A stretch of DNA of 39,792 nucleotides from Bacteroidota bacterium. GTDB lineage: Bacteria > Bacteroidota > Bacteroidia > Bacteroidales > WCHB1-69. Position numbers and translations under genes: made by a program. Of the stretch, positions 1,671-39,792 are shown one piece after another; position 1 is the first letter of the stretch; every line of letters starts with the position of its first letter. Under the pieces are notes generated by a model. It did not search any database. It saw only the letters and a program-made list of their open reading frames with translations, and was not told the origin of the DNA. Where the stretch lies: NCBI GenBank assembly GCA_029570835.1, contig JAKPTX010000160.1, positions 1 to 39,792 on the forward strand, read 5' to 3'.

Positions 1671-4571
1671 ATGAACAATCGAGCCATTTTATTAAAGCTA
1701 TTTTTTGTATTACTCATTTTCTCATTGGGGAACCTGTACGCTCAGAATATAAACATGTATCACGGTGTAGAATCTTTACAAAGTGAAACGGGGAATTTTT
1801 ATGATGAGGGTGGTCCTAATGCCGATTATCCTGCGAATGTAGAAGGAGCAATAACCCTAACTTTTGAGTCAGGTACAACCCATAATTTTGGAGCAGGTTG
1901 GGTGACCAGTCAGTTGCAGTTTCAGTTTATTGATTTTGCATTGGGTTTAGGTGACACACTCTTTATTTATGATGGGGATGATGCTACTGCTCCCTTGATT
2001 GGGGCTTATAACTCTGTAAATAGTCCGGGAGTAGTAACATCAACAGGAACCAAAATTACATTTGTATTCTATTCGGATGGTATCCCGGATTTGAACGGCT
2101 TAAATATGGGGTGGCATGCTCGCTTTGCAGCCTATTTTTCACAACCAAAGGTGTATAGAATGGAGGCGGCTACTCACATGACTTTCGCTGAGGGTTGTAA
2201 TATGAAATTATATGATTCAGGTGGTCCGACAGGTAACTTTTCCAGTGGTGAAAACTATACTATAATGCTAACTTCCAATCTGGGGAGTCATATCAAAGCC
2301 GAAAAGGTTACTTTTAATTTAGGCTCCGGCAATAATGTGTTGGAGATATACGATGGAGATTTGGTTTTTGATGCCGGAAATGCAAGACGCATAGGCTACT
2401 TTAAACAAGGTTTTGCTCCTCCGACAATTTTGGTATCAAGCGGGCAATCGATGTCATTTAAGTTTACCTCTTCAGGAGCTACCGGTCAAGGTTTTGAGTT
2501 TAATATCACATGCGTTCCCGAGATATATACCCAGGAACCGGGAGAATCTGCCTGTCCGGGTGTGGAAATAGGGCTTTATGTAGCAGGTCAACCTTTTGAA
2601 GGTCGGGATACGCTTACCTTTGATTGTAATAATCCGATGATTATGCTTCGGGCTAGAGGTAAAGCTCCCGGTCATTTAACTAATGATTATATGCTTCAGT
2701 CGATTCCTTATGATCCTCCATTTCCATGGTTTGGAGAGGGACTAACTCCGGTACCCACTTCTACCGATGACGCTTGGTTGGGACCAAAACCGTTGACCCC
2801 CAATCCTAATAATGCGCCTGTGGATTTTAAATTTACTTTTTATGGTAATGACTACACTCAATGTGTACCTTCAACCAATGGAGCGATCTCTTTCAATAAT
2901 CTTTCTGCCGGTTATGCTGCATGGTCGTTTAATCAGACAATACCTAATACCAATGATCCTAATTACAATTTTATTTCCAGTTCTTACAATTTTAAAAACT
3001 GTATTTTTGGGGTAATGCAAGATACTTATCCCGGTGCCGGTTCTCCACCTGCCAATAGTGGTTACCACTATGGAAATCAGGGAGAGTATCCTTGTAGAAC
3101 GTATGTTCTCTCCTCCTATCGCTTACCTCAATTTTCTTGTACCTCTGATAATTTGTCAACTTATCAGATGGTATTGTACGAAGGAAGCAATATTATAGAT
3201 ATTTATGTTAAAGACAGAACAGTATGTCAATCCTGGAATAGCGGATCAGGATTGCTTGGTATTTTAAACTCAACGGGGAATCAGGCTGTGGTACCTCCGG
3301 GAAGAAATACCGGTCCTTGGGTAGCCCACGAGGAAGCGTGGCGCTTTATTCCTATATCACCTACTGAGTATACTATAACCTGGTATAAAAATGAGGTAAC
3401 TCCGGAAAATGAGATTCCAAATCATAATCTGGATAAACGTATTGTAGCAGTTTATCCTACTGAAACAACCAAATATATTGCAGAGTTAGAGTTTGAAACA
3501 GCAGCGGGTATTACGTATCAATTGTACGATACTATTCGTATTATTGTGAATAAACCTGAATTGAATACTACATCAACTGCTTCCGAAATTTGTCCGGGAG
3601 AACCTGTCGAATTAACCGTGCATACCGCTGATGCCGCTTATGAAGATCAGTTGGCCTCTTTTGAGTGGTACGAAGGTACAACTCTGATAGGGGATGCGCA
3701 AACTATTGAGGTTGCCCCTATAACAACAACCGCTTATTCTGTCCGTATAACATACACCAATAATTGTGAAAATACAGATTCGATTTCAATTGCAGTTCCC
3801 GAATTGCTTATGCCGGTTATTGTCGGAGATACGAGTATTTGTGCCGGAGAACGTACTACATTGACTATGACTGAAGCAGAAGGTTCTTGTACATGGAGTA
3901 CCGGTGCAACAACTCCTTCTATAACAGTGTCACCCAATCAAACGACACAATATTCCGTTGCTGTATCAACCGATATTGGCTGTATTACCAAAGATACGAT
4001 TACAGTTCATGTTTCGCCAACACCTGAACCTCAATTCTTCCCTTCACCTGCTCATGTGTATGTTGAGGATGGAGTGGGTCTGGTTGAGTTTGTCAACCTT
4101 TCACAAGGCGCAACGGATTATTTGTGGCGCTTTGGAGATCCCCATTGTATCCCGGCAGAGAATATTTCTACTGAATTTGAACCCAGTCACGGCTATACTC
4201 GCTCAGGTACCTACAAGGTAGTACTTACTACAACAAGTGAGGAAGGATGTGCTGACTCAATTCATAAGTTTGTGATTGTTGAAGTGCCTTATTTCTTCTA
4301 TGCTCCAAATACGTTTACTCCCAATGGGGATGGTATCAATGATTATTTTTATACAAGTGGGGAGGGATTAGATCCTGATAGGTTTGAAATGATGATCTAT
4401 AATCGTATGGGAAATCTGGTTTTTAGATCAGTAACTCCGTTTGATTACTGGGATGGACGCAATCAGGATGGTTCACTGGCACCGGCTGGGATTTATGTTT
4501 ATGTGATTATTACCCACGATATGGAAGGCAATCCTAAAAAATATGAGGGTACCGTGACTTTGATTAGGTAA
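1671..4571 (+). CDS. T9SS-sorted surface protein with CUB-like, PKD and type B C-terminal sorting domains
   Basis: This is a large secreted protein of 966 residues. An N-terminal signal peptide (about 1-25, hydrophobic FFVLLIFSLG, ending YAQ) is followed by two CUB-like domains at about 41-155 and 177-281, each with an aromatic-rich IYDGD strand. The middle (about 290-560) is not recognised. Ig-like segments with regularly spaced Cys and Trp follow (about 640-790), then a PKD domain (about 795-875, DYLWRFGDP and SGTYKVVLTT). The last 88 residues are the CHU_C or gliding-motility-type C-terminal domain: NTFTPNGDGINDYF, then MIYNRMGNLVF, then FDYWDGRNQDG, ending in TVTLIR. That domain is the type B signal for export by the type IX secretion system. 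Adhesion or glycan binding is plausible, but no catalytic motif is seen. It is first in a tight gene run, and DUF4292 starts 2 bases after its stop. Confidence 0.9.
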   Translation: MNNRAILLKLFFVLLIFSLGNLYAQNINMYHGVESLQSETGNFYDEGGPNADYPANVEGAITLTFESGTTHNFGAGWVTSQLQFQFIDFALGLGDTLFIYDGDDATAPLIGAYNSVNSPGVVTSTGTKITFVFYSDGIPDLNGLNMGWHARFAAYFSQPKVYRMEAATHMTFAEGCNMKLYDSGGPTGNFSSGENYTIMLTSNLGSHIKAEKVTFNLGSGNNVLEIYDGDLVFDAGNARRIGYFKQGFAPPTILVSSGQSMSFKFTSSGATGQGFEFNITCVPEIYTQEPGESACPGVEIGLYVAGQPFEGRDTLTFDCNNPMIMLRARGKAPGHLTNDYMLQSIPYDPPFPWFGEGLTPVPTSTDDAWLGPKPLTPNPNNAPVDFKFTFYGNDYTQCVPSTNGAISFNNLSAGYAAWSFNQTIPNTNDPNYNFISSSYNFKNCIFGVMQDTYPGAGSPPANSGYHYGNQGEYPCRTYVLSSYRLPQFSCTSDNLSTYQMVLYEGSNIIDIYVKDRTVCQSWNSGSGLLGILNSTGNQAVVPPGRNTGPWVAHEEAWRFIPISPTEYTITWYKNEVTPENEIPNHNLDKRIVAVYPTETTKYIAELEFETAAGITYQLYDTIRIIVNKPELNTTSTASEICPGEPVELTVHTADAAYEDQLASFEWYEGTTLIGDAQTIEVAPITTTAYSVRITYTNNCENTDSISIAVPELLMPVIVGDTSICAGERTTLTMTEAEGSCTWSTGATTPSITVSPNQTTQYSVAVSTDIGCITKDTITVHVSPTPEPQFFPSPAHVYVEDGVGLVEFVNLSQGATDYLWRFGDPHCIPAENISTEFEPSHGYTRSGTYKVVLTTTSEEGCADSIHKFVIVEVPYFFYAPNTFTPNGDGINDYFYTSGEGLDPDRFEMMIYNRMGNLVFRSVTPFDYWDGRNQDGSLAPAGIYVYVIITHDMEGNPKKYEGTVTLIR

Positions 4572-33519: not shown

Positions 33520-35238
33520 TTAAAATTGAAAATAAATAAAAGGCTGTAAATCAGCAGTAATAAACTGATATACAATAAATACCGCCAATACTACAATGAT
33601 TACCATGGCCCAAATGGGGAGTAGGGCAAAATTGACGCGGTACCATCTTTTCCATCGATCCGGTAACCAGTGCACTATCATTCCTAAAATGAATAAAATA
33701 ACCACATATTTGTAAGTGCTTATAATTGAGGGTATTACTGATAAATTCCAGTCGCCTCCGATCTGGTTAACCATATTCTTAGCGGTATTCCAGGCAGTTG
33801 AACTTGCTTCTTTGGGATCCAGATTGGATCCGGAGCGGAAAAAGAGTCGGGTAAAGGTGATAAATATAAAAGTGAGGAAAATGCCCCATACTCGCTGCAT
33901 CCAACCGATAGGATCTTGATGCGTGATGATATGGCGAATGTAACTGATTAAAGTTCCGATAAAGATGATACCGCTCCACACGGCTCCCAGCATCCAGATA
34001 GGTTGATGGAAAAGGAGTTCCAGTGTACTGAAGAGAGCAAAAAGGAGTAGTGTGGCAATCATTTTAGTGAGCGGAGTCCATTTTCTCCACCTTTTGAATA
34101 TGAGAATACCGATTCCGTTTAAACCACCCCAGATTACAAAATTCCAACTGGCTCCGTGCCAGAGTCCTCCTAATAACATGGTGATCATCAGGTTGATATC
34201 GGTTCTAATTTTTCCTTTTCTGTTTCCTCCTAAGGGGATATATAGATAATCTTTAAGCCAGGTAGACAGAGATATGTGCCATCTTTTCCAAAATTCTCCC
34301 GGATTGGTTGCTTTGTAAGGAGAATTAAAGTTTTTAGGGAGATAGAATCCCATCAACATAGCTACTCCAATGGCAATATCTGTATATCCTGAAAAATCGG
34401 CATATACCTGAAGTGAGTACCCGAAAAGTGCAAAAAGATTTTCAAAAGAGGTGAATAACAGCGGATTATCAAATACGCGGTCAACAAAGCTGACTGCAAT
34501 ATAGTCGCTGAGAATGATCTTTTTTAGTAATCCGTTTAAAACCCAGAAAACCGCTATTCCAAATTGTTTTTTTGTTAAGAAAAACTTCTTATACACCTGA
34601 GGCATAAACTGATTGGCACGCACAATGGGACCGGCTACCAGTTGTGGAAAGAAGGTTACATAAAATCCAAAGTTGAAAAAGTTGCGGGTATGGGGCATCC
34701 TTCTTCGATAAACATCCAGCACATAGCTGATGCTTTGGAAGGTGTAAAAAGAGATTCCCACCGGCAACAATATTCGGGAAGAATCAAAATGCTCTTTTTG
34801 GATCACATCATTGCTCCATTTGGCAATATAGTTGATCACTTCATAATCTGTCTGAAATAGCGAGTTGTAGAGATCCGTGAAAAAGTAGGCATACTTAAAA
34901 TAGGCTAAAATAGCTAAATTGACAAAGACTCCCAGGATCATATAGAATTTTCTTAATCCGGGTTTTGAGGTTAAATCGATTGCTTTTCCAGAGTAGAAAC
35001 AGACAATGGTTGTAACAACCAGCAGGATTAAGAACAAACCGGAAGTTTTATAGTAAAAGAGCATACTGAAGAAAAAGAGAAAGGTATTACGAAGTAATAT
35101 CCTATTTCCTATCAGTGCAAAACCGGCATAAACAATAGCAAAAAATGCCCAGAAATAGAATTGGGTGAACAGTAAGGGATACTTATTGTCAAAAGAGAAT
35201 AGTGTAGTTAAAAATGCAAGAAAATTATCCCAACTCAT
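33520..35238 (-). CDS. MBOAT family O-acyltransferase, AlgI/PatA-like
   Basis: MBOAT proteins of this type move acetyl or other acyl groups across the inner membrane for transfer to extracytoplasmic glycans. The 572-residue protein has about eleven to thirteen hydrophobic helices. The AlgI-type core includes LLPVGISFYTFQSISYVLDVYRR-like sequence (about 158-180), FFPQLVAGPI (196-205), YADFSGYTDIAIG (279-291), FWKRWHISLSTWLKDYLYIPL (from 316) and LLGGLWHGASWNF. H361 of the latter is the invariant catalytic His and H321 is also conserved. Its start overlaps the stop of the adjacent SGNH gene by four bases. Together with two SGNH genes it suggests an O-acetylation cassette, but the glycan target is unknown. 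Confidence 0.92.
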   Translation of the reverse strand: MSWDNFLAFLTTLFSFDNKYPLLFTQFYFWAFFAIVYAGFALIGNRILLRNTFLFFFSMLFYYKTSGLFLILLVVTTIVCFYSGKAIDLTSKPGLRKFYMILGVFVNLAILAYFKYAYFFTDLYNSLFQTDYEVINYIAKWSNDVIQKEHFDSSRILLPVGISFYTFQSISYVLDVYRRRMPHTRNFFNFGFYVTFFPQLVAGPIVRANQFMPQVYKKFFLTKKQFGIAVFWVLNGLLKKIILSDYIAVSFVDRVFDNPLLFTSFENLFALFGYSLQVYADFSGYTDIAIGVAMLMGFYLPKNFNSPYKATNPGEFWKRWHISLSTWLKDYLYIPLGGNRKGKIRTDINLMITMLLGGLWHGASWNFVIWGGLNGIGILIFKRWRKWTPLTKMIATLLLFALFSTLELLFHQPIWMLGAVWSGIIFIGTLISYIRHIITHQDPIGWMQRVWGIFLTFIFITFTRLFFRSGSNLDPKEASSTAWNTAKNMVNQIGGDWNLSVIPSIISTYKYVVILFILGMIVHWLPDRWKRWYRVNFALLPIWAMVIIVVLAVFIVYQFITADLQPFIYFQF

Positions 35239-36530
35239 AGTTCACCATTGTAGCTGTTCATATTGTGATTTTCTAGTCTTATTTTGCTCTCCATCAAGGC
35301 ATCAAGAAAAAGCATCCCCATCAGTTCATAACCTTTACGGGTAAAATGAACACGATCCCTTTGCGCTAATCCTTTTTGTACCCATTGATACATTGATTTG
35401 GCTCCCCCCATGATATGATACTGATCAAATACGGCTCCTTGTGTTAAAGAGGCTAACTCATACATCACTTGTTGTACTTTCTTTCCATTTTCGTTGTTTC
35501 TCCAATACACTTTTCTTTTTCTTCTTATCCTTTTGTAGGTGTCATTGTTGGTAATAAAAATAAAAGCACATTGAGGATTTATTTTTTGAAACCTTTCAAT
35601 TAGCGCCAAATAGTTGTTTTTGAACTCTTCAGGATTGAAGTTGGGTCCGGAAGCATCGTTGACCCCAATATTCATAATGACTAAGTCGGGATAGATCAGA
35701 TCCAGATCTTGTTCGAAATTTTCACATCTTAAGTAAGAAGGAACGGAGGCACCATTCACACCAATGGAGTGATATGTGATGCCCGGTTTTGGATTTTTTA
35801 GGTAAAAGCCATTCAGAATAAAACGCTCTCCTTGGAAACAGTTAAAACGAACTGTAAATGAATCTGAAAAATGTAGCGATTCGTAATGGAATCTTCTTTT
35901 TAGGGTATCTATTTTGGTTGGGAAATATTCTAATGAGTCGATCCAAATTGTGGGTACAATATAGGAAGAGTCCGAATAACCCATTAAAATAAGTTCTTCT
36001 GTTTCAAATTTTAGCAATGAGTCAGTGAAAATAATTCTCAATTCAGCCAGGGTATCTTGAGTAATTACTGCAACTCCGGTTAAACCCAGAGGAACCTCAT
36101 GAGGGTCAAAAACATTTCTGACAATAGAGAATGAACCGATACTGCGTACCCGATAATCAATGGGATTATTTGATTTCGGAGCAGCAGAGTACGGGAAAAT
36201 AAGCCCTCTTTCACCAATTAAATCGGGATTTTTGAGTAGAAGTTGTTGTCGGATAGTATGGGGAAATGTACCGGCCTGAACATGAGACCCACCTATATGA
36301 ATGATGTTTAGATTTCCTTCTTTTGTTTTGACAATCTGATCCCATTTGTTAAAGAAATGGATTAATAATGATGAATCATATTGGGTAACTAGTGTGTCTG
36401 CATAGAAGTTGATAAAAGGGTAGGAGACAAAGTCCGAAACATTCTCTGAAGTCGTATCTGTTTGTCCAACACTAATGTTGAAAAAGATAAAACTTAAAAT
36501 AATTGTACTAACAGCCTTTTTTATTATCAT
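35235..36530 (-). CDS. Secreted SGNH-hydrolase-like protein (GGSH variant), MBOAT partner
   Basis: The 431-residue protein has a signal peptide (about 1-22, VSTIILSFIFFNISVGQ). SGNH blocks are present. Block I is IIHIGGSHVQAG with candidate nucleophile S82; Gly replaces the Asp of GDS. A block III-like segment is IMNIGVNDASG with Asn, and block V is DRVHFTRKG with Asp and His about three residues apart. An intermediate region (about 115-250) is beta-rich and may be a carbohydrate-binding or jelly-roll part. In alginate, cellulose and peptidoglycan acetylation systems an SGNH protein receives the acyl group from the MBOAT protein, so that role is likely here by context. It overlaps the MBOAT start by four bases and follows the next SGNH gene after 12 bases. 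Confidence 0.82.
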   Translation of the reverse strand: MIIKKAVSTIILSFIFFNISVGQTDTTSENVSDFVSYPFINFYADTLVTQYDSSLLIHFFNKWDQIVKTKEGNLNIIHIGGSHVQAGTFPHTIRQQLLLKNPDLIGERGLIFPYSAAPKSNNPIDYRVRSIGSFSIVRNVFDPHEVPLGLTGVAVITQDTLAELRIIFTDSLLKFETEELILMGYSDSSYIVPTIWIDSLEYFPTKIDTLKRRFHYESLHFSDSFTVRFNCFQGERFILNGFYLKNPKPGITYHSIGVNGASVPSYLRCENFEQDLDLIYPDLVIMNIGVNDASGPNFNPEEFKNNYLALIERFQKINPQCAFIFITNNDTYKRIRRKRKVYWRNNENGKKVQQVMYELASLTQGAVFDQYHIMGGAKSMYQWVQKGLAQRDRVHFTRKGYELMGMLFLDALMESKIRLENHNMNSYNGEL

Positions 36531-36542
36531 ACATCTCCCTTT

Positions 36543-37979
36543 CTATTTTACTTTTTGGAAAAGTTCATCAAAGTCCACATCGCTATTATTGGCTCTCAAC
36601 TTATAAAACTGGTACATTGTTTCAAAGGATTGAACTAAAATCTCTCCTATTTTTTGAGCACCTTGCGGGGTAAAGTGAACATAATCGCTTCCTGCCCATC
36701 CTTTATTCACCCAAGCTACCATAGAGTTTTCGCCTCCCATCACTTCATACATGTTCCAAAAAGCGGCTCCATGAGCAGGGATTCTTGTCTTTAACTGTTC
36801 AACCAGATAGGGTAGGTAAGGATAGGTTCCCATTTCTCCTTTAACACGGGTGCCCATATCGGATGGTCCAATAAAAAGAATAGGTAGATCAGGGAACAAA
36901 CGATGAAAATAATCTATTTGGGATAAGATTTGATCAACATATTTGTCAGCACTTTTTTCATTATAAATGGAAGGTACGGAGTTCCCTCCAAATTGAAGCA
37001 CGATCATTTTGACATTGATCTCTCTGTAGGTTTGTTGCATTAGCTGACCATCAATTTGAGAGAAGAAGGTGCCGCTTGCTCCTCTCATCGGAATATTATC
37101 CACTGCAACTCCTGCTTTACCGTCAACTAAAACTCCGTGGATATTTCCCCACCCGTTCATTTGAATTGAAAACTGTGATAGAGCAGTGTCTAATCTCCAG
37201 TTGATGGTGTGAAATCCAGGTTCAGAGATAGTTTCAACTGAGATAGCCGGCTTTCCTTTTTGTGATAATGTAGCTTTAAATTGTTCACCTAAATGTGTGA
37301 GTAACAGGGTTATATTGGAATAGGGAGCAAGTTTTGTTTTTCGTTCTTGAGCAGATGTGGAAACGTAAAATGAGCCGGGAGAAGAGATTTGGAAAGTTTT
37401 AGCCATCAATCCGTAATCTCTGCTTTTGGTTCTCGAGCCATCCCCATACAAGGCGTATGTTGTGTATTCCCCTGAATAACTTTGGTATACTGATGCAGTA
37501 GGAATTGATTGGTATAGAGGGAGTAATCCGGGACCCGATCCTCCAAAAACAGATTGGAAATAGTTTCTCATATTGATACTAATCCGGTCTAACTCAATCT
37601 GTGAATCGCCATAATGCAATACCCGAATCACGCGATTTGAACTTCTTGCCTGTTCCGCTTCCTTAAAAAAGGAGTCAAAAAAGCTATAATCATCGTTGGG
37701 TAAATAAAAACGGGTAGGGTGCACCATCGCCTTAGCATAGTAGGTCAATGTATCCTTAAATTCATGATGTAAAGAGTCCAATTGCGCCAACTCCTGTTGT
37801 TGTAAGATTAATTCGGGATCGATTGTTTCTTTTTCTTTATTACGAATCATTTCCTGGGGGGCAGGAAAGTCAAAGCGGTATCCGAAAATTTGAATACCCC
37901 CCTCTGGAAATACCAGCGATATGATCACTAAGAGGGCAATGATGACAAAGATAAACAATGAGATCTGGTAGGGGCGCAT
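36543..37979 (-). CDS. Membrane-anchored SGNH-hydrolase-like protein, MBOAT partner
   Basis: From the ATG at 37979 the protein has 478 residues. A single hydrophobic helix near the N-terminus (about 6-25, ISLFIFVIIALLVIISLVF) probably anchors it in the inner membrane, facing the periplasm. Block I is VLHYGDSQIELDRI with S126, a block III-like segment is VLQFGGNSVPS, and block V is SDYVHFTPQGAQKIGE. It is a clear relative of the adjacent SGNH protein but keeps the normal GDS motif. An in-frame ATG at 38030 would overlap rpe by 44 bases and add a charged tail before the helix, so the later start, 7 bases after the rpe stop, is preferred. AlgJ/AlgX-like or PatB-like acetyl transfer is inferred. 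Confidence 0.82.
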   Translation of the reverse strand: MRPYQISLFIFVIIALLVIISLVFPEGGIQIFGYRFDFPAPQEMIRNKEKETIDPELILQQQELAQLDSLHHEFKDTLTYYAKAMVHPTRFYLPNDDYSFFDSFFKEAEQARSSNRVIRVLHYGDSQIELDRISINMRNYFQSVFGGSGPGLLPLYQSIPTASVYQSYSGEYTTYALYGDGSRTKSRDYGLMAKTFQISSPGSFYVSTSAQERKTKLAPYSNITLLLTHLGEQFKATLSQKGKPAISVETISEPGFHTINWRLDTALSQFSIQMNGWGNIHGVLVDGKAGVAVDNIPMRGASGTFFSQIDGQLMQQTYREINVKMIVLQFGGNSVPSIYNEKSADKYVDQILSQIDYFHRLFPDLPILFIGPSDMGTRVKGEMGTYPYLPYLVEQLKTRIPAHGAAFWNMYEVMGGENSMVAWVNKGWAGSDYVHFTPQGAQKIGEILVQSFETMYQFYKLRANNSDVDFDELFQKVK

Positions 37980-37986
37980 TGATAGT

Positions 37987-38649
37987 TTATTTTTCCGTGG
38001 TGCAATTGCGTAAGTTATGAATAGCTTCAAGCGGATCTTCAGATTTAAAAATAGCGTTTCCGGCTACCAAAATATCCGCACCCGCTTCAACTAAAGAAAG
38101 ACAATTGTCCTGATTAACACCCCCATCTACCTCAATGAGAGCATCAGAGTTGTTCCGGATGATGAGATCTTTGAGTTCTCTAATCCGATCTAAACTTTTT
38201 TTAATAAACTCTTGTCCTCCAAATCCCGGATTAACAGACATGATCAATACAAAGTCCAGATCTTGAATAATATCTTCCAAAAGTGTTACCGGAGTATGTG
38301 GGTTTAATGCCACACCGGCCAACATATCCAAGTCGCGGATGGCATGAACAGTACGATGAAGATGGGTTGACGCCTCCCAATGTACTGCGAGCATATCCGC
38401 ACCTGCTTTTTTAAAATCAGCAAGATATCTTTCCGGTTTTTCAATCATAAGGTGAACATCCAAAGGCTTTTCGGAAATCTTTCTGATAGCTGAAATTACC
38501 GGCATCCCAAATGTGATGTTGGGAACAAAGTGACCATCCATGATGTCTAAATGGAGGTAGTCCGCTTCCGATTGGTTAATTAATCTGATATCTCGTTCTA
38601 AATTGCCAAAATCAGCTGATAGTAATGAAGGGGATATAATCGGTTTCAT
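37987..38649 (-). CDS. rpe: Ribulose-phosphate 3-epimerase
   Basis: Rpe interconverts ribulose 5-phosphate and xylulose 5-phosphate in the pentose phosphate pathway. The 220-residue TIM-barrel protein shows the family motifs: SPSLLSADFGNLERDI (about 6-21), YLHLDIMDGHFVPNITFG (31-48), LDVHLMIEKPERYL, VLIMSVNPGFGGQEF (about 137-151) and ALIEVDGGVNQDN. Metal-binding His and Asp residues are all present. It is the first gene of the minus-strand run leading into the two SGNH genes and MBOAT, with a 7-base gap. The link between epimerase and acylation genes is probably positional only. Confidence 0.95.
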   Translation of the reverse strand: MKPIISPSLLSADFGNLERDIRLINQSEADYLHLDIMDGHFVPNITFGMPVISAIRKISEKPLDVHLMIEKPERYLADFKKAGADMLAVHWEASTHLHRTVHAIRDLDMLAGVALNPHTPVTLLEDIIQDLDFVLIMSVNPGFGGQEFIKKSLDRIRELKDLIIRNNSDALIEVDGGVNQDNCLSLVEAGADILVAGNAIFKSEDPLEAIHNLRNCTTEK

Positions 38650-38837: not shown

Positions 38838-39296
38838 ATGAATATGATGAAAAGAACGATCCTTTTTTTTAGTTTGATAATCCTCTTGCAGGGTGTATTT
38901 GCACAACAAAGGCAAGAAACGGTCTATGCGGATCCAAGAATTGTTGAAGTATTTGGACAAGAGACAGTTGACTTCTATCTTCAAGAGAATCCCAGGGTGA
39001 TCCAGTACTATAATTTCTTCCTGGATAATGCCTATACTATTGCTGAAGTTCCACAGGAAAAGATGCAATATATCAACGAAGTACCCGAAATGAAACCAAA
39101 AGAAAAGTACCAAATGGAGTACTTCGACTACACAGACAAAGGACTGGAAGATTTGAATATTATGAAATTTGATATAAAAATTGATCCCAATATCGGTCCT
39201 ATTTACCGTTTAGGAAATACAAATAAGTTGATTTACTTCCTATCAGGAAAAGAGATTCAGGAAAAATACAATCAGTACAGGTTAGAAAATAAATAA
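38838..39296 (+). CDS. Small secreted protein of unknown function
   Basis: The 152-residue protein has a signal peptide (about 1-22, TILFFSLIILLQGVFAQ). The mature part is charged and soluble in character, with an early YADPRIVEVFGQETVDFYLQ segment, a YYNFFLDNAYTIAEVP segment near 56-71, and a lysine-rich tail. No cysteine, lipobox or catalytic motif is seen, and I do not recognise a named family. It is followed after one base by a CUB-domain secreted protein gene, so the two are very likely co-expressed. A helper or accessory role for that cargo is possible but unsupported. An in-frame ATG two codons after the first could equally be the start. Confidence 0.75.
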   Translation: MNMMKRTILFFSLIILLQGVFAQQRQETVYADPRIVEVFGQETVDFYLQENPRVIQYYNFFLDNAYTIAEVPQEKMQYINEVPEMKPKEKYQMEYFDYTDKGLEDLNIMKFDIKIDPNIGPIYRLGNTNKLIYFLSGKEIQEKYNQYRLENK

Positions 39297-39297
39297 A

Positions 39298-39792
39298 ATG
39301 AGATCCATAAATATGAAAAAAGTTTTATTAACATTAGCTGTTTTAATTCCATATATTCTGTTTGCTCAAACAAATATCAATATGCCATCCGGTTCCAATA
39401 CCGCTACGCATACCACTTGTAATGCTCGTTTTTATGACACGGGTGGTTTGAATGGCAATCATGGAATTAACCAAAATTCAAGTATTAAGTTCGCACCTGC
39501 CACTGCGGGTCTGGCTATTCGTATTCAGTTTAATATCTTTACTGTTGGAGAGGGAGCAGTTATGACATTATATGATGGTCCGGACAATACCTATACCGTC
39601 ATTGCAGTGTATGATCAATTTATTAATCCTTCAGGTTTGGCGATTGTAGCTGGTCCTCCTCCTGCAAATCCGGACGGTTCCATCTATATTGAGTTTACAT
39701 CCGGAACGATGAACGAAATTGGCTGGCAGGCCGATATTACTTGTCGTGCACCATGTCAAAGTTTTAATGTTCAAATTGACCCGCTGGTAACT
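39298..39792 (+). CDS. CUB-domain secreted protein, N-terminal part (runs off window)
   Basis: The frame is open for 165 codons to the window edge. A signal peptide (about 6-24, KKVLLTLAVLIPYILFAQ) is followed by a CUB-like domain (about 35-150): CNARFYDTGGLNGNHG, then VMTLYDGPDN, then IYIEFTSGTMNEIGWQADITC. This architecture is like the start of the T9SS-sorted protein at 1671, so a large surface protein with a C-terminal sorting domain is expected beyond the edge. Either the ATG at 39298 or the one at 39313 may be the start; the second gives a more usual MKK signal peptide. Confidence 0.8.
   Translation, partial: MRSINMKKVLLTLAVLIPYILFAQTNINMPSGSNTATHTTCNARFYDTGGLNGNHGINQNSSIKFAPATAGLAIRIQFNIFTVGEGAVMTLYDGPDNTYTVIAVYDQFINPSGLAIVAGPPPANPDGSIYIEFTSGTMNEIGWQADITCRAPCQSFNVQIDPLVT

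Follow-up and report, generated by a model that had tools for sequence, protein, structure and literature searches.

Three adjacent minus-strand genes in a 39,792-nucleotide stretch of DNA from a Bacteroidota bacterium of the order Bacteroidales (assembly GCA_029570835.1, contig JAKPTX010000160.1; the whole stretch is referred to as the window) quite probably make up a Bacteroidales form of the peptidoglycan O-acetylation (OAP) cluster, in which one of two related SGNH proteins would act as an acetyltransferase and the other as an esterase. They encode P3, an Ape1-type SGNH protein with a membrane anchor that occupies the position of ape1b (36543-37979, 478 residues), P2, a secreted SGNH protein likewise of Ape1 type, at the position of ape1c (35235-36530, 431 residues), and an MBOAT of the PatA/AlgI type (33520-35238, 572 residues). 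To judge from PatA, the MBOAT would transfer acetyl from cytoplasmic acetyl-CoA to the tyrosine of its C-terminal FIYFQF motif; P3 would load it onto its own serine and then onto the C6 hydroxyl of N-acetylmuramic acid (MurNAc), the job of PatB, an assignment to which co-occurrence, motifs and natural exchanges of parts all point; and P2 would remove the acetyl again in the manner of Ape1, letting lytic transglycosylases act. A preliminary description of this DNA had recognised the three genes, with overlaps or gaps of 12 bases or less, and had proposed an uncharacterised O-acylation cassette of an MBOAT with two related SGNH proteins. The arrangement is confirmed, P3 and P2 being 12 bp apart and P2 and the MBOAT gene overlapping by 4 bp (ATGA), and an O-acylation cassette is very probably what it is. 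The word 'uncharacterised' has to be dropped, since an ape1b-ape1c-pat OAP cluster has been known since 2005 (PMC1199599).

A wider proposal, towards which the evidence leans with less assurance, is that much of the Bacteroidales acetylates peptidoglycan without PatB, an ancient Ape1 paralogue having become an acetyltransferase, lost the active-site His and Asn and gained a near-invariant Arg in block II, and its sister having stayed an esterase. If so, the writer and the eraser of one mark would be paralogues in one operon, and in some lineages this operon would directly follow the gene of the very lytic transglycosylase that is blocked by their mark. O-acetylation of peptidoglycan is relevant to lysozyme resistance and to the control of autolysins. 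What is proposed as new beyond the searched literature is the split of roles, P3 as transferase and P2 as esterase; an open-access literature search gave no paper assigning a Bacteroidales transferase among the matches listed.

The relationship of both SGNH proteins to Ape1 is seen in sequence and in predicted structure. The Pfam family Lipase_GDSL_2 matches P2 at 4e-13 and P3, below the Pfam cut-off, at 1.3e-5. In a search of Protein Data Bank sequences, the best solved relative of P3 is the Ape1 of Neisseria meningitidis (1.1e-16), and those of P2 are the Ape1 proteins of Campylobacter jejuni (1.9e-18) and N. meningitidis (8.3e-16). Structure prediction, which the preliminary description had recommended for the pair, gave AlphaFold models with mean pLDDT values of 88.9 (P3) and 92.4 (P2) and with Ape1 folds: against N. 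meningitidis Ape1, the P3 model reaches Z 36.2 (root-mean-square deviation 2.9, 343 residues aligned) and the P2 model Z 38.0 (2.8, 347 aligned). Over three Ape1 entries the scores range from 31.8 to 36.2 for P3 and from 36.8 to 38.0 for P2, the best structures other than Ape1 scoring 14.6 and 19.0, respectively. The match covers nearly the whole chain behind the N-terminus in both models, P2 being aligned from residue 45 to 420, and by these models both proteins follow the Ape1 plan, in which a beta domain interrupts the SGNH domain behind block I. Structures titled PatB come at ranks 10-16 for P3 (four rows, Z 13.1-13.5) and at rank 34 for P2 (one row, Z 15.8), with neighbouring rows tied. 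In a quick tree of 113 proteins a single branch, with a support of 100, separates P2 from P3.

It is at the active site that the two proteins part, the positions being fixed by alignment to Ape1 and the residue counts taken from alignments of the relatives. The four residues of the SGNH site (Ser, Asn, Asp and His), whose loss had been named in the preliminary description as fatal to the cassette, are present in both proteins and kept in their relatives: Ser126, Asn333, Asp432 and His435 in P3, where the Ser, the block III Asn, the Asp and the His occur in 142/142 relatives, and Ser82, Asn291, Asp392 and His395 in P2. The Ape1 esterase motif adds a His directly after the Ser (GDSH) and an Asn in block II (NG). 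P2 has the SH and the NG (Asn259-Gly260), with Gly for Asp in block I (GGSHVQ), whereas both the His and the Asn are absent from P3, whose block I reads GDSQIE and whose block II reads RG (Arg299-Gly300). The difference holds across the relatives: the block I position is His in 0/142 P3 proteins and in 107/108 P2 proteins, and the block II position is Arg in 139/142 P3 proteins and Asn in 104/108 P2 proteins. The Gly of block II is kept in 123 of the 142 P3 proteins, the others having Ser (16) or Ala (3). P3 would therefore not be classed as an esterase by its active-site motif, because it is without the block I His and block II Asn of Ape1. Noncanonical forms of block II have been reported in PatB (PMC12148441), in some OatA proteins (PMC6174289) and in PatB1 of Bacillus cereus (PMC9487903), although the residue changes are not identical; a 2018 review still gave PatB an invariant block II Gly (PMC6174289). 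Two further features of the active-site alignments may be recorded: in 87/108 P2 proteins the GDS motif has Gly, Ala or Ser in the place of Asp, its catalytic Ser and the His next to it being kept, and Asp374 of P3, outside the classical SGNH blocks, is invariant (142/142).

The third protein matches the Pfam MBOAT family at 1.9e-30 and has both features by which a PatA-type MBOAT is recognised, a C-terminal FXYXXF tyrosine motif (FIYFQF, Tyr569) and the MBOAT histidine (His361). The motif is found in 53/53 MBOATs of the named loci, as FIYFQF in 52 and FVYFQF in one; in a wider set its tyrosine is present in 93/105 proteins, the other 12 having gaps at the position and none a different residue, and the histidine is kept in 105/105. 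A role as DltB in the D-alanylation of teichoic acid was rejected, the MBOAT scoring 143.9 bits against an NCBIfam LTA_dltB cut-off of 375 bits. One further MBOAT is encoded in the same genome, on another contig (locus L082, C32, 3090-9775); its C-terminus reads NPFIYFRF, next after it comes an AlgX-type SGNH protein (PF16822, 29.9 bits), and before it lies a 1309-residue protein with a sorting tail of the type IX secretion system (T9SS). That locus appears to be a separate O-acylation system, and would be a better candidate than the window cassette for a target other than peptidoglycan.

The assignment of roles draws further on the company that the genes keep. Among 40 genomes of the family, P3 is present in 38, P2 in 37 (38 matches, the one in G020 being a cross-match on P3) and an orthologous MBOAT in 38 (39 matches, G028 having only a paralogue with 43% identity), and in 57/80 named loci the order is P3, P2, MBOAT, some of the other 23 being cut by contig ends. 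A survey of the order covered 89 genomes from 88 families, each at least 95% complete, with the MBOAT profile applied at E<=1e-120; the 30 MBOAT-positive genomes, from 29 families, include P3 in 30/30 and P2 in 25/30, and P2 never occurs among them in the absence of P3. Five lack P2 (G159, G163, G188, G227 and G243); in these, P3 and the MBOAT gene are adjacent and the sole match to the P2 profile falls on P3. G181 resembles them, with P3, an adjacent MBOAT below the E threshold and no P2; P3 also adjoins the MBOAT gene in the genome of L150, in which no P2 was found, and in G020, likewise with no P2 found, the two genes are on separate contigs. Loci without P2 are scattered over several places of the P3 tree, so that its loss seems to have been repeated, in a quick tree with some forks unresolved. 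The absence of P2 rests on the P2 profile survey, which scored up to 20 first-look candidates per genome (up to 14 in the MBOAT survey), and not on the lists of open reading frames (ORFs), which retain only the longer frame where two overlap and left out some true genes (such as P2 in L235 and the MBOAT in L240). Fourteen further genomes with an MBOAT gene beside P3, including G166 and G244, were kept out of the 30/30 count since their MBOAT was located through P3. Fisher tests on the co-occurrence counts take no account of how the genomes are related.

Beyond the order, the P3 profile matched in 24/118 genomes of the phylum, a survey used for spread and tree rows only, and a search of viral contigs with P3 found no relative. 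In the source genome P2 is the only relative of P3 that was found, and P3 itself is 90% identical to its counterpart in the near relative Bacteroidales bacterium UBA5429. In genomes whose genes are scattered (G009, G035, G014 and G029), inspection by motif and by eye showed no further SGNH candidate near the MBOAT gene. A natural exchange of parts is seen in distant Bacteroidales with another kind of cassette (L202, L220 and L221), in which an AlgI-type MBOAT and a DHHW SGNH protein come first and a P2-LysM protein after them; here the esterase-like part would have stayed and the other slot been filled by another SGNH family. Of the genomes concerned, G184 and G178 have a separate P3 locus in addition, which G168 does not; its single P3-profile match, a P2-type protein, was left out of the P3 count.

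Several observations weigh against P3 as transferase and P2 as esterase, and some of them would suit reversed roles, with P2 as the acetyltransferase partnering the MBOAT and P3 as a membrane-bound esterase. It is the P2 gene, not that of P3, that overlaps the MBOAT gene, and a weak similarity to the PatB family DUF459 (PF04311) at E<=0.01 is found in 12/43 P2 members as opposed to 1/46 P3 members. In the order survey, 8/14 DUF459 matches fall on P2; the cut-off is exceeded in 5/89 genomes, three of these matches being on P2. A control genome, Bacteroides ihuae, also exceeds the cut-off, perhaps through a true PatB or through P2, and the absence of PatB is for this reason limited to the source genome and not extended to the whole order. 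In the source genome DUF459 had no match, and among the window proteins P2 scores 12.9 bits (cut-off 27.2) and P3 has no match at E<=1. L218, moreover, has a PatA-type MBOAT and a P2-LysM protein without an adjacent P3, the full trio lying elsewhere in the genome. Partners are also missing in G162 and G167, where P3 has no MBOAT gene next to it, and in G036 and G032, where an MBOAT is present and neither SGNH protein was found (the MBOAT contig of G032 is 3,572 bases long). The 2005 study called both SGNH types esterases, and it describes Ape1c as lacking a segment of about 100 residues after motif I (PMC1199599), whereas P2 has a beta-rich segment there (about residues 109-257). P2, compared with the proteins of that study by description only, is classed on its model as Ape1-type by fold and not as Ape1c.

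Reversed roles are nevertheless unlikely, for it is P2 that keeps the His and Asn of Ape1 and P3 that does not, five of the 30 MBOAT-positive genomes have P3 and no detectable P2 while the converse does not occur among the 30, and P2 also accompanies the DHHW protein. The likeness of P2 to DUF459 would reflect what SGNH proteins have in common, since the Lipase_GDSL_2 score of P2 is also the higher of the two. More doubtful still is that P2 and P3 are both transferases, working one after the other or at different sites like AlgJ and AlgX: neither has lost the SGNH residues Ser, Asn, Asp and His, and both occur in nearly all family genomes searched, but P2 is missing at several places of the P3 tree where P3 and the MBOAT stay, and it is Ape1-like in sequence and overall fold.

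The target is probably peptidoglycan, as the Ape1 folds, the LysM and SPOR fusions and the lytic transglycosylase neighbours of distant relatives suggest. The preliminary description had listed peptidoglycan beside lipopolysaccharide O-antigen and glycans of T9SS cargo and had left the choice open; peptidoglycan stands, and the openness does not. One or two C-terminal LysM domains are present on at least 7/109 distinct P2-type proteins, three of them within P3-P2-MBOAT operons (L210, L217 and L219), and SPOR on at least 1/144 distinct P3-type proteins (L214), both counts being lower bounds from a scan of proteins with long extensions. At least 11/34 order-level P3 loci have an SLT+LysM lytic transglycosylase gene upstream of P3 on the same strand, a lower bound from likely-looking neighbours (the upstream genes of about 20/34 were left unscanned) and no rate, as the loci, from 33/47 P3-holding genomes, were partly picked as odd. 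The lytic transglycosylase gene is directly upstream in L198, L199, L222, L223, L227, L229, L237, L238 and L241, and one DUF4837 gene intervenes in L209 and L214; L239 has a fragment with LysM in which SLT is just under the cut-off. An O-acetyl group at C6 of MurNAc blocks lytic transglycosylases (PMC6174289), which would explain this partnership. Further upstream, genes named by eye as ParB-like (L198, L199, L237 and L241) and ParA-like (L198 and L199) were also seen. That the acceptor is another envelope glycan, such as lipopolysaccharide O-antigen or a glycan on T9SS cargo, is the least probable of the alternatives: MBOAT-SGNH pairs acylate several glycans (PMC12148441) and the Pfam search of the window recognised no peptidoglycan gene beside the cassette, but the fusions, the lytic transglycosylase neighbours and the Ape1 fold speak otherwise, and O-acetylated peptidoglycan has been measured in hosts of a like cluster (PMC1199599).

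Upstream of P3, on the same strand and 7 bp away, lies rpe (37987-38649), encoding ribulose-phosphate 3-epimerase. The transcription unit may start at rpe, its probable first gene; rpe is no part of the acetylation system, and it adjoins P3 in 5/80 named loci. P3 is taken to start at the ATG at 37979, as most of its homologues also start at ATG; a longer TTG start at 38030, given in the ORF list, was rejected because it overlaps rpe and most homologues begin at the ATG. The N-terminus of P3 has a single hydrophobic segment within its first 34 residues, and P2 begins with a signal-peptide-like segment, its cleavage being judged by eye. Elsewhere in the window, the plus-strand ORFs divergent from rpe (38838-39792; 152 residues and an open frame of 165) have no Pfam match at E<=1, a 966-residue protein at 1671-4571 combines a PKD domain with a type IX secretion signal domain (CHU_C), and a search for RNA families and tRNAs found none. 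An anti-phage role was set aside, PADLOC giving no match.

Among known systems, alginate acetylation by AlgI/J/X/F was rejected, as neither window SGNH protein matches PF16822 (AlgX) at E<=1. The closest is the OAP cluster named by Weadge, Pfeffer and Clarke in 2005, with the order ape1b, ape1c, pat in Bacteroides and Porphyromonas (B. fragilis, B. thetaiotaomicron and P. gingivalis; PMC1199599). Of these hosts, B. fragilis had base-labile acetate at 69.4% of its muramic acid and B. thetaiotaomicron at 27.0% (PMC1199599). The preliminary description had held that homologues lying in a known locus of PatA/PatB kind would refute its candidate, and with this cluster that is largely the case, except that no PatB (DUF459) was found in the source genome. 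The window shares with the OAP cluster two Ape1-type SGNH genes followed by an MBOAT gene, Bacteroidales hosts and some proteins with an N-terminal anchor; block I reads GGSH in P2 and GDSQ in P3, as against the GDS(H/F) of the paper, with which it was compared by description only. With the PatA/PatB/Ape1 systems of Neisseria gonorrhoeae and C. jejuni it has in common an MBOAT with FXYXXF, an Ape1 esterase fold and a further SGNH protein in the operon, and C. jejuni PatA acetylates itself at the tyrosine of the C-terminal FXYXXF, such a peptide being usable by PatB as a donor (PMC12148441). It differs from them in that the source genome yielded no DUF459 PatB and in that P3, as the additional SGNH protein, is built on the Ape1 plan with the inserted beta domain and carries the block II Arg. 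PatA1/PatB1 of B. cereus, which O-acetylates a secondary cell wall polysaccharide, likewise pairs an MBOAT with a separate SGNH transferase; its DHHW protein belongs to another SGNH family, the one that stands beside a P2 relative, in P3's place, in three loci. The block II Arg of PatB1 serves the oxyanion hole (PMC9487903) and recalls Arg299 of P3, which lies one place earlier, before the Gly.

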